DNA from: a virus
Strand: one strand, 5' to 3'
DNA length: 22,208 bases
Virus record (IMG/VR): IMGVR_UViG_3300038954_000553
Location: 1-22,208 of that record
The translations under genes were made by a program, and so were the position numbers. Each line of letters begins with the position of its first letter. The stretch's first letter is position 1. Under the pieces are notes generated by a model, which was not told the DNA's origin, searched no databases, and saw nothing but the letters and a program-made list of their open reading frames with translations. Of the stretch, positions 5,899 to 8,841 are shown in pieces.

Positions 5899-6650
5899 CC
5901 ACGTTGGCGGACTGGACGCGGGAGGTGCGCAGGAACTACACCAGGATGTCGCGGGATGAGGAAGCGGAGGCATCACGCGACAACTTGGTGGAGCGAAATA
6001 TGCCCCTTGTCCTGCGAATGGCCGAAAGCTTCAAGGGGCGCGGCGTGGCGTTTGAAGACCTGGTGCAGGAGGGCTTCATTGGCCTCATGCGGGCCGCTGA
6101 TAAATACGACCCTGCCCGCGGCAACCGCTTCTCCACTATGGCCGTCCCGTGGATACGGCAAGCCCTTCAACGAGCGGTCGCCAACCACGGCAGGGTTGTG
6201 CGCCTGCCAGTCCACATTCAAGAAAAATGGCGAAAGCTACAAGCGGAAGAGGTGAGGTTGCACGAGGAGATGGGGCGCGAGCCAGCCACGGAGGAGCTTG
6301 CCGAAGCATCTGGTTTTTCATCGGCTAAGATAGAGGAGATGCGCAAGGTTTGCCGGCGTGTTTACAGTTTGGACACACCAGTCGCAACGGATGCAGGCGA
6401 AACGTTTGCCGCCGTCCTCCGCCAGGATGGGCACGAAGACGAAAGCATCCTGGCGGATGAGATACAGGCTCTCCGCCGTGCGATGAAAACCCTGACAGAC
6501 GAGGAGCAGCGCATTATTCGCCTGCGATACGGGATAGGGGCGGAGCCTATGCGCTGGCGGGATATAGGGAGAGAAATGGGGATGTCGCACGAGTATTGCC
6601 GACTGACCTGCAATCGTGCGATTGCACGGTTGCGGGAGGCGCTGGGATGA
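5895..6650 (+). CDS. RpoD-like sigma70-family RNA polymerase sigma factor
   Basis: 251 residues with the order of a group 3-4 region sigma factor lacking region 1.1. Region 2 begins near residue 31 (LVERNMPLVLRMA), includes DLVQEGFIGLMRAADKYDP at 55-73 and FSTMAVPWIRQALQRA at 79-94 for -10 recognition; region 3 spans about 104-150; region 4 (LTDEEQRIIRLRYGI, then WRDIGREMGMSHE) spans about 195-251 and has the helix-turn-helix for the -35. It would redirect host RNA polymerase, for instance to phage late genes. It ends by ATGA overlap with the adenine methylase. The recognisable promoters in this window look like ordinary sigma70 sites, so its targets are unknown. Confidence 0.92.
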   Translation: MTTLADWTREVRRNYTRMSRDEEAEASRDNLVERNMPLVLRMAESFKGRGVAFEDLVQEGFIGLMRAADKYDPARGNRFSTMAVPWIRQALQRAVANHGRVVRLPVHIQEKWRKLQAEEVRLHEEMGREPATEELAEASGFSSAKIEEMRKVCRRVYSLDTPVATDAGETFAAVLRQDGHEDESILADEIQALRRAMKTLTDEEQRIIRLRYGIGAEPMRWRDIGREMGMSHEYCRLTCNRAIARLREALG

Positions 6651-7480
6651 AGCCAATCCTGTCGTATTATGGCGGCAAGCAGCGGATAGCCTCTCGCATC
6701 GTGGAGCTTATCCGTACTATCCCTCACAAGGTCTACGCTGAACCATTCGCTGGCGGCGCGGCGGTGTTGTTTGCAAAAGGTCGGCCGCATACCACAAACA
6801 CAACCCACTACCGCGAAGCAATAAATGATGTGGATGAGCGGATAGTCACCTTGTACCGCGTGTGCCAGGAGCAGGAGGGCGAACTGTTGCACTTGCTCAA
6901 ATACACACCATACAGTCAGTCGGAGTACCGCAAAGCCTCGGAGATATTAAGAGGCGAGGTTGAAACCACTGACCTGCGCCGTGCCTGGGCAACAGTGGTT
7001 AGCACCCGTCAGGGCTTTGCAAAAAAGATGTTTGGCGGGTGGGGGACGAGTGTGAGTGTGACAGGCTCAAACGACGCGATGGGGTGGGCAACCTATCTTG
7101 ACGCATTGCCCGATATCCTGGCGCGGTTTCGTGGCGTTTTCGTGGCGTGCGAGGACGCCCTGCGCTTCATTGAGCGTTGGGATAGCCCAGACACGCTCTT
7201 CTACTGCGACCCACCGTATCCAAATACGTGCCAGGGCCATTACGCTGGATACACGCTTGATGACTGGCAGGCGTTGTGCGACGCGATTGACCGTTGCAAG
7301 GGGAGCTACATCCTGAGCAATTATCCGCAAGAGATTGAGCCGCAAACAGCACAGCAGCGGATAGAGCTAGATGCGGTGATGTGCGCAGCAAAGGATGTGC
7401 GCGGGGAAAAGCGCACCGAGGTGCTCTGGGTGTGCAACCGCAGCGGCGCGGTTGTGGAGCAGAGCAAGATGTGGGAATAA
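6647..7480 (+). CDS. dam: Dam-type DNA N6-adenine methyltransferase
   Basis: 277 residues, normal for the D12-class/Dam family. The N-terminal LSYYGGKQRI, the SAM-binding motif EPFAGGAAV at 32-40 and the catalytic DPPY at 188-191 are clear. It methylates adenine N6, probably for protection against restriction or for regulation. The start at 6647 overlaps the sigma factor stop as ATGA; the open frame upstream of it has no better start. Its stop codon lies within the A tract that is the U tract of the opposing terminator, so the two convergent operons share only a few bases between them. Confidence 0.92.
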   Translation: MKPILSYYGGKQRIASRIVELIRTIPHKVYAEPFAGGAAVLFAKGRPHTTNTTHYREAINDVDERIVTLYRVCQEQEGELLHLLKYTPYSQSEYRKASEILRGEVETTDLRRAWATVVSTRQGFAKKMFGGWGTSVSVTGSNDAMGWATYLDALPDILARFRGVFVACEDALRFIERWDSPDTLFYCDPPYPNTCQGHYAGYTLDDWQALCDAIDRCKGSYILSNYPQEIEPQTAQQRIELDAVMCAAKDVRGEKRTEVLWVCNRSGAVVEQSKMWE

Positions 7481-7510
7481 AAAAAGCCGCCAGGGTAAAG
7501 ACCCTGGCGG
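7479..7510 (-). terminator. Intrinsic terminator of the minus-strand cassette
   Basis: A perfect 10-bp stem (7487-7496 with 7501-7510) with an AAAG/CTTT loop is followed on the minus strand by C and seven T (7485-7479). On the plus strand no T tract follows, so it works in the minus direction. Confidence 0.9.
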
Positions 7511-7579: not shown

Positions 7580-7978
7580 TTAAAGAATAATTATCCTGTC
7601 GAGGGTGGTAAGCTCGCTTTTCCAGTGCTTCCCTGCCCTGTCAATCCCCCTGGCAGAGTTCTTCATTCCCATCCTTTTCATCCTGCCCAGCAACGCGCGG
7701 TATGCGGCCCAGGTTCCATCGAGATGGGCTATCGTCGGTGTCTTCCATGTCCCATACAGATGGAACACTTCATCTTGGTATTCCGCCCTAATTTGTATGC
7801 GGTCGCTTGTGATAAACACATAGTTTTCCACTAGTTGGGCCTGTTTCAACTCCTGCTTTACCGATAGGTAAGCAGGCCGTTCGGTGAAGCACGCTCCAAA
7901 TATTTCCACAATAACCTGTGCTGCTTCTTGCAACGTCAGGTTGTGGAAATCCAAGTTGGTCATCCCGTAATCAGCCAT
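7580..7978 (-). CDS. Hypothetical protein C (third gene of the ribozyme cassette)
   Basis: 132 residues, soluble, mixed alpha/beta, with a basic C-terminal third (GRMKRMGMKNSARGIDRAGKHWKSE). AAAGGAG at 7992-7986 lies 7 nt before the ATG at 7978; the frame is open 21 codons further upstream, but that part is the hammerhead ribozyme, so 7978 is the start. The ribozyme ends only 4 nt before the ribosome binding site. Followed by a long hairpin and the cassette terminator. No family recognised. An unidentified accessory gene on the opposite strand from the phage core suggests a superinfection, anti-defence or lysogenic role, but nothing in the sequence shows which. Confidence 0.78.
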   Translation of the reverse strand: MADYGMTNLDFHNLTLQEAAQVIVEIFGACFTERPAYLSVKQELKQAQLVENYVFITSDRIQIRAEYQDEVFHLYGTWKTPTIAHLDGTWAAYRALLGRMKRMGMKNSARGIDRAGKHWKSELTTLDRIIIL

Positions 7979-7996
7979 CTCGCAACTCCTTTCATA

Positions 7997-8060
7997 AGTC
8001 TCATCAGTACCGCTATCTGCGGTATACGTGAGGAGTGGCAAGTCTCCCCACGTTTCGACT
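7997..8060 (-). ncRNA. Type II hammerhead self-cleaving ribozyme (upstream of gene C)
   Basis: Read on the minus strand: AGUC (8060-8057), conserved GAAA (8056-8053), stem III 9 bp with one G-U pair (8052-8044 with 8035-8027, loop ACUUGCCA), the U-A of the cleavage site (8026-8025), stem I 6 perfect bp (8024-8019 with 8013-8008, loop AGAUA), the conserved core CUGAUGA (8007-8001), then GACU (8000-7997), which closes stem II with the first AGUC. All invariant core bases are present, the first A of stem III (A15.1) pairs with U16.1, and G10.1-C11.1 is present. Expected cut is between 8025 and 8024. It lies in the 100-bp gap between genes B and C. Confidence 0.93.
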
Positions 8061-8079
8061 ACTGCTTTCGCTTCGGAAT

Positions 8080-8427
8080 TTATTCTTCCTCAAATTCTTC
8101 CTCAAACTCCCAATCCCAATCGGAAGAGTTATCAATTTGGATAAATCCCATTGCTTTAGCGAATGGAACACACTCGTCGCAAACCTTCCTCATTATGATG
8201 TAATCCTGCTCCTCTTGCATCTGCCTTACAAGCTTCGCTGCATTTCCCTCTCGTTTGAAGAGAGTTTCTATGGTGTGTATCTCATTATTCCCGTACACTT
8301 CCATTCCAGCGATGGGATATCCACCATCATCCACAAGAACGACCAAATCTGCTTGTTCGTCTTGCCCAATTAAGTCAAAGCCCAATCCCTCAAGGTCGTT
8401 CGTGTTGTAATCGTATCGAATTTCCAT
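8080..8427 (-). CDS. Hypothetical acidic protein B (second gene of the ribozyme cassette)
   Basis: 115 residues, strongly acidic, ending in WDWEFEEEFEEE. The N-terminal half looks like beta strands (ADLVVLVDDGGYPIAGMEVY), the middle helical, with a Cys pair in KVCDEC. GGAG lies 7 nt before the ATG at 8427; the 12 upstream in-frame codons are leader sequence shared with gene A and are not used. The acidic tail recalls DNA-mimic or inhibitor proteins, but I cannot assign a family. It sits between the two hammerhead ribozymes, so after cleavage it would be a single-gene mRNA. Confidence 0.78.
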   Translation of the reverse strand: MEIRYDYNTNDLEGLGFDLIGQDEQADLVVLVDDGGYPIAGMEVYGNNEIHTIETLFKREGNAAKLVRQMQEEQDYIIMRKVCDECVPFAKAMGFIQIDNSSDWDWEFEEEFEEE

Positions 8428-8448
8428 CACGCAACTCCATTCCTTTAA

Positions 8449-8463
8449 TACTATTGCTAACAA
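8449..8463 (-). promoter_or_regulatory. Copy of the leader motif after the first ribozyme
   Basis: Minus-strand GTTAGCAATAGT followed by ATTAAAG and AATGGAG copies the 5' leader of gene A almost base for base over about 36 nt. Here it directly follows the ribozyme stem II rather than a recognisable -10 box, which argues for a role in RNA or for duplication of the leader rather than a second promoter. Confidence 0.6.
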
Positions 8464-8518
8464 AGTCTCATCAGTGACGCTGCTTGCGCCAGACCCCTGG
8501 CAAGTGTGGGTTTCGACT
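8464..8518 (-). ncRNA. Type II hammerhead self-cleaving ribozyme (upstream of gene B)
   Basis: Minus strand: AGUC (8518-8515), GAAA (8514-8511), stem III (CCC-A-C at 8510-8506 with GGGG at 8497-8494, one bulged A, loop ACUUGCCA at 8505-8498), cleavage triplet GUC (U8493, C8492), stem I 6 bp with one G-U (8491-8486 with 8480-8475, loop AAGCA), CUGAUGA (8474-8468) and GACU (8467-8464) closing stem II. Invariant core bases and the A15.1-U16.1 pair are all present. Expected cut is between 8492 and 8491. The stem sequences differ from the other copy in a pairing-preserving way (stem I UGGCGC/GCGUCA versus UACCGC/GCGGUA), while core, stem II and stem III loop are identical. Confidence 0.93.
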
Positions 8519-8520
8519 AT

Positions 8521-8546
8521 TAAATTAAACTTATAAATTAAACTTA
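8521..8546 (-). repeat. Perfect 13-bp tandem duplication at the end of gene A
   Basis: TAAATTAAACTTA is present twice in direct contact at 8521-8533 and 8534-8546. The upper copy carries the stop codon of gene A. It ends 2 bp before the upstream ribozyme. Confidence 0.9.
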
Positions 8547-8771
8547 GGCAAACTTTTCCATGACCTCTTCATAAGATATGCCCATTTTGGAAAGATGTGC
8601 CTTGAAGCTGCGTTCGTGATGCCCCCGCGCTGGGCATATCTTCCCGCTCTTCAAGTCAATATGTCCGATTTTTTCGTATGGTCGGTTTTTGAACCCTGTT
8701 TCGACTTGGAAATACAATCGTTTCATACCTTCACGTTCCCAAACATTCAGTTTGTATCCGTTATTTTCCAT
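8544..8771 (-). CDS. Hypothetical protein A (first gene of the ribozyme cassette)
   Basis: 75 residues, basic, mixed alpha/beta: a beta-rich N-terminal part (KLNVWEREGMKRLYFQVETG) and a helical C-terminus (SFKAHLSKMGISYEEVMEKFA). GGAG lies 6 nt before the ATG at 8771; an ATG 24 bp upstream is in frame but lies in the shared leader without a ribosome binding site. It is the promoter-proximal gene, with a 5' leader of about 35 nt starting at the AGTTAGCAATA motif, and no ribozyme in front of it. The size and basic charge would fit a small DNA- or RNA-binding protein, without firm support. Confidence 0.72.
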   Translation of the reverse strand: MENNGYKLNVWEREGMKRLYFQVETGFKNRPYEKIGHIDLKSGKICPARGHHERSFKAHLSKMGISYEEVMEKFA

Positions 8772-8795
8772 CACTTGCTCCATTTCTTTAATCAC

Positions 8796-8841
8796 TATTG
8801 CTAACTAGGAATAATTTATCATGCGCCAATGGTATTGTCAA
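8796..8841 (-). promoter_or_regulatory. Sigma70-type promoter of the ribozyme cassette
   Basis: On the minus strand TTGACA (8841-8836), a 17-nt spacer and TAAATT (8818-8813) form a good promoter; +1 is expected at A8806. Transcription would start with AGTTAGCAATA, the same first 11 nt predicted for the promoter at 1436, with TTAGCAATA at 8804-8796. Confidence 0.83.

Follow-up and report, generated by a model that had tools for sequence, protein, structure and literature searches.

Serial hammerhead ribozymes in phage DNA were described in 2011 by Perreault et al., who reported them flanking single genes or short gene blocks on one strand in phages and prophages, with clustered hammerheads in the ardA region of Agrobacterium tumefaciens, in Azorhizobium caulinodans, and in Clostridium scindens, and who proposed that such arrays yield single-gene mRNAs (PMC3088659). 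The same study demonstrated cleavage both in vitro and in E. coli, showed that native polycistronic RNA is cleaved, and tied a pseudoknot between loop I and the 3' tail of the type II consensus to fast cleavage (PMC3088659). A further point of comparison is the HHphage ribozyme of haloviruses HF1 and HF2, for which a mapped transcript 5' end lies at most three nucleotides from the cleavage site (PMC3088659). The locus analysed here resembles HHphage in that a hammerhead stands just ahead of a phage start codon, but HHphage is a single variant-core ribozyme heading an early transcript and is not placed serially between genes. With the arrays of Perreault et al., the locus shares several same-strand hammerheads flanking single genes in phage DNA, whereas it differs in the phage and genes concerned, in that a whole promoter-to-terminator operon is in view, and in that a relative shows gene exchange around kept ribozymes. 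The preliminary description of this DNA had held the serial use of hammerheads to be an undescribed system, a claim that fails because Perreault et al. had reported serial phage hammerheads (PMC3088659), and the operon is a further case of the arrays described in 2011.

The window, i.e., the whole analysed stretch of 22,208 nucleotides, is the phage contig IMGVR_UViG_3300038954_000553; besides the operon, it carries terminase, portal, and tape measure genes. On the minus strand, the operon runs in the order promoter, gene A, first hammerhead (HH1), gene B, second hammerhead (HH2), gene C, and terminator. A scan located a sigma-70-type promoter at 8813-8841 (TTGACA-17-TAAATT with an extended TG, 10 of 12 matches) and an intrinsic terminator at 7479-7510 (a 10-bp GC-rich stem followed by a T run), in agreement with the preliminary description, and both elements are kept in the related contig 3300037504_001074 (hereafter L123), in which the terminator is identical. 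Between them lie open reading frames for gene A (8544-8771, 75 amino acids, GGAG upstream), gene B (8080-8427, 115 amino acids, GGAG upstream), and gene C (7580-7978, 132 amino acids, AGGAG upstream). HH1, a type II hammerhead with a GUC triplet, occupies 8464-8518 and was recovered by a structural descriptor and an independent covariance model; HH2, of the same type with a GUA triplet, occupies 7997-8060 and was recovered by both of these and by the minimum free energy fold. The window thereby holds two same-strand hammerheads, each between adjacent genes of one transcription unit in a phage genome, as in the serial arrays of Perreault et al.

No family match was obtained for genes A, B, and C; gene A had no match in PHROGs, relatives of gene B were looked for in viral contigs and phages and none was found, and the operon DNA had no match among 50,697 phage records. 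An assignment of gene A to XisI was rejected at a Pfam score of 16.7 against a cut-off of 25 bits, and the weak Pfam and PHROGs matches of genes A and B were set aside as being below cut-off or having E-values near or above 0.01. The AlphaFold model of gene C was too poor for fold comparison (mean pLDDT of 52.6). Directly after gene C there is a second promoter-like site (TTAACC-17-TATAAT, 7583-7555, minus strand), which falls inside a perfect 13-bp inverted repeat (7518-7530/7562-7574) immediately ahead of the terminator. This site is kept in L123, its exact core occurs in no other viral contig, and it could drive a short structured RNA (window 7583-7479, minus strand; fold z of -9.7). A DNA methyltransferase gene lies beside the operon (window 6596-7480, plus strand); L123 lacks it at this position, and a sigma factor gene comes there directly after the operon terminator. 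Elsewhere, at 2252-2351 on the plus strand and inside the ORF at 2143-2520, a pair of 15-nt inverted repeats lies side by side (87% and 100% complementary, with 2- and 4-nt loops), the second of which underlies a mir-337 match; the Rfam matches to mir-337 and ncS54 in the window were below cut-off and were taken as chance hairpin matches.

HH1 consists, in order, of AGUC, GAAA, stem III, C17, stem I (6 bp, loop of 5), CUGAUGA, and GACU, and its stem III comprises 4 bp (an A-U closing pair plus three GC pairs) with a loop of 11. HH2 follows the same plan, with a stem III of 10 bp, a loop of 8, A17 (hence the GUA triplet), and a stem I of 6 bp. The CUGAUGA and GAAA core, the A15.1-U16.1 pair, and an NUH triplet (GUC and GUA, respectively) are present in both, and a three-helix structure, in which loops cap stems I and III and stem II stays open, is supported by the descriptor, the covariance model, and compensatory changes in stems I and III. 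The earlier claim of a full type II hammerhead with all core bases in each gene gap was thus borne out, the coordinates and sites given there proved exact, and cleavage is expected from the sequence at 8492/8491 in HH1 and at 8025/8024 in HH2. The minimum free energy fold of HH2 is the exact hammerhead (z of -4.06), whereas that of HH1 is not a hammerhead and contains stem I and part of stem III only (z of 0.08), a weak fold because stem III has only four pairs; HH1 is accordingly the weaker case of the two.

With the type II family of Rfam (RF02276), both ribozymes share the open stem II, the closed stems I and III, the CUGAUGA/GAAA core, and the NUH triplet, while the subtype found in the window is marked by a 6-bp stem I, a 5-nt loop of the CA..YAG type, and UAGUC..GACUU around stem II. 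Unlike the described type II consensus, this subtype shows no clear pseudoknot by eye: loop I and the 3' tail of HH1 and HH2 could form at most 3-4 pairs, including G-U, and the conserved C and A of loop I suggest another contact. A kissing contact between loops III and I of HH1 was dropped as it is missing in HH2. Separately, a stem III loop motif near [ACT]CUU[GA][CU]CA is kept while the surrounding stem varies (L123:5243-5980, L154, L155, HH1, and HH2).

Several lines of evidence separate the two ribozymes from chance. The GAAA..CUGAUGAG pattern had two matches in the 22-kb window, HH1 and HH2, against 0.08 expected; the type I/III arrangement had one match against 0.44 expected, which was HH2 itself, and none stands out. 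An independent covariance model, trained on 28 hammerheads taken from contigs other than the window and L123, scored HH1 at 60.3 bits (E = 6e-15) and HH2 at 56.2 bits (E = 9e-14), E-values that are rough because the calibration was short, and the next match in the window reached 12.5 bits. The covariance check proposed in the preliminary description held with this model, which finds both ribozymes, but not with Rfam Hammerhead_II (RF02276). The latter gave no match to HH1 and scored HH2 at 17.3 bits, its curated gathering score of 37 bits being a library cut-off and no biochemical criterion. Other core-perfect arrays likewise score under this cut-off. Across 1.16 Mb of fetched loci, the structural descriptor gave 170 matches with the true core and 0 with 25 scrambled versions of CUGAUGA, the count of 170 being enriched by design because most loci had been retrieved by a hammerhead pattern. 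Moreover, 31 members of the subtype showed changes on both sides in 15 of 20 pairs, with 97.9% of cells paired versus 68.9% in shuffles; this covariation is support and no blind test, because stem II was set by the search pattern and the pairing of stems I and III was demanded by the descriptor for most rows. In a close set of eight members, eight pairs had two-sided changes.

L123 was the sole close relative found, with ~87% DNA identity in the shared parts. It retains the promoter, leader, gene C, and terminator together with two hammerheads, but has different small genes in place of A and B. Its promoter stands in the same place (TTGACA-17-TATACT, 11 of 12 matches), and its gene C homologue is 90% identical. 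The first L123 hammerhead is identical to HH2 at 64 of 64 positions yet precedes a different gene, and the second, which precedes gene C, has the core unaltered and differs by paired, compensatory changes in both stems I and III. One of the three gene gaps in L123 is without a ribozyme; the earlier proposal that every gene of the operon is split off thus applies to both gaps of the window but is no general rule.

An alternation of genes and ribozymes, which the preliminary description had suggested seeking in related phages, was seen in two further contigs, G001 and G002, and partly in L123. On G001, a more distant contig of 42 kb, no fewer than six hammerheads of this subtype lie on a single strand, among them a run of gene-hammerhead-gene-hammerhead-gene-hammerhead-gene with gaps of 3-25 nt, and the subtype model indicated a seventh candidate (L155 5016-5079). 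G002 has ten model matches, and eight consecutive hammerheads bound seven intervals with one small gene each (L159 2886-5844, minus strand); in six of these intervals a UAG stop overlaps stem II of the next ribozyme, and the stop of the seventh adjoins it. One strict pattern alone had at least 120 matching stretches in viral contigs. The corrected subtype pattern matched 22 stretches in viral contigs versus one real match in 84,980 bacterial and archaeal genomes (four of five matches there were without stems I and III and were dismissed as chance), so that the subtype is mainly viral. Three hammerheads were also observed at L149 805-2006, on a contig that is binned as a Lokiarchaeota MAG (JABXKD010000121) and is probably viral.

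The placement of the ribozymes relative to genes was surveyed in 149 non-redundant hammerheads from the viral-contig loci examined, 141 of which were testable. A Shine-Dalgarno start lies at most 150 nt downstream in 116 of the 141 (median 24 nt); for random positions the figure is 28%, and for the antisense side 5%. The median distance from the upstream stop codon to stem II is 1 nt in the 149-hammerhead survey, the upstream stop begins at -6 to +3 of stem II in 106 of 153 hammerheads, and where a UAG is present at stem II, it is the in-frame stop in 31 of 53 ribozymes.

On the basis of sequence and of analogous systems, it is likely that the operon RNA cleaves itself at both hammerheads into single-gene pieces, uncoupling small accessory genes under one promoter. 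Self-processing is likely because core and architecture are conserved in a relative with swapped genes, and cleavage into single-gene pieces is expected because analogous arrays that have been tested do cleave (PMC3088659). The scrambled-core control, the covariation of the subtype, and the survey of start and stop codons around viral hammerheads speak for it as well. Points against it are the 4-bp stem III of HH1 and its minimum free energy fold other than the hammerhead, the lack of a clear pseudoknot by eye in either copy, and the 4 of 18 consensus hammerheads that showed no activity in vitro (PMC3088659). Alternatively, the hammerheads may cut while the role for which they are retained is genetic, namely as conserved joints for cassette exchange, with cleavage being tolerated or selfishly maintained. 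The L123 ribozyme that is a full copy of HH2 but now stands before a different gene, with the upstream genes replaced, fits such a role, as does the fact that many contigs have just the ribozyme in common at the DNA level. Furthermore, among related viral contigs, 55 of the 89 longest alignments covering a hammerhead end at the ribozyme, compared with 18 of 48 alignments at ribozyme-free gene gaps taken as a control (Fisher p = 0.0075, pairs not independent). The window and L123 provide an actual example of such exchange. However, ribozyme gaps exceed ordinary gene gaps only modestly in this respect, and the alignment ends are explained partly by gene-gap mosaicism. In addition, the compensatory changes indicate selection on RNA structure because they preserve base pairs, which a pure recombination joint does not need, and a mainly genetic role is considered unlikely.

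It is even less probable that HH1 and HH2 are remnants of hammerheads, decayed or no longer active, or mere RNA hairpins acting as nuclease or stability elements. The poor folding of HH1 would agree with decay, as would the inactivity in vitro of 4 of 18 consensus hammerheads (PMC3088659), but loss of core bases would then be expected. Rather than varying freely, which the preliminary description had named as the sign against its own reading, all core bases are intact in HH1, HH2, both L123 copies, and six G001 copies, and the stem pairs change in concert. A further scenario, in which the paired ribozymes excise the gene B RNA and either hammerhead ligation or an RtcB-type ligase of the host rejoins its ends into a circular mRNA, appears very improbable. 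Because HH1 and HH2 have a common stem II (AGUC/GACU), the ends of the excised RNA could rebuild one hammerhead across the junction, and the chemistry of a 5'-OH and a 2',3'-cyclic phosphate fits RtcB. Against this, neighbouring hammerheads in G002 carry unlike stem II sequences (AGUC and AGCC), indicating that matching ends are not maintained, and Perreault et al. found neither spliced nor circular products when they looked for them (PMC3088659).

Under the favoured reading, in which the operon RNA processes itself, the single promoter would give rise to an A-B-C transcript of ~1.3 kb from the minus strand, and HH1 and HH2 would fold and cut at their predicted sites to leave pieces of ~315, 467, and 545 nt with one gene each, as counted from a start site predicted near 8806. 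The 3' end of each upstream piece would be the stem III hairpin, carrying a 2',3'-cyclic phosphate; each downstream piece would open with a 5'-OH right at the stem I hairpin, after which a short leader containing a Shine-Dalgarno sequence would come. Such processing would probably serve to make small accessory genes under a common promoter independent of one another in stability and translation. Several bacterial decay routes act poorly on RNAs with 5'-OH ends and terminal hairpins, and therefore each gene may, as a conjecture, gain its own mRNA lifetime. More speculatively, and with a rather low probability, the hammerhead may be a standard gene-end module in many phages, at one ribozyme per gene and with the stop codon of the preceding gene inside or against stem II, so that the terminating ribosome would block folding and gate self-processing by translation, with the modules also serving as joints for gene exchange. 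The stops at or next to stem II in G002 and in the wider set of 153 hammerheads are in line with this idea. Translation gating as such would not apply in the window, because its stops sit 28 and 22 nt upstream of HH1 and HH2, respectively.

Beyond a further case of serial phage hammerheads, the present analysis adds a subtype that is missed by the Rfam cut-off, the position of upstream stop codons at stem II, the G002 array with its one ribozyme per gene, and the swapping of genes next to a conserved ribozyme; no description of these four was found in the literature searched, which covers few subscription papers. As public models miss much of the subtype, its extent is underestimated. The relatives reveal selection on core and pairing amid the swapping of neighbouring genes, and also that arrays with one ribozyme per gene exist. 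The operon thus offers a clean, small, and testable case for a question that has been open since 2011, namely what phages gain from mRNAs cut by ribozymes.
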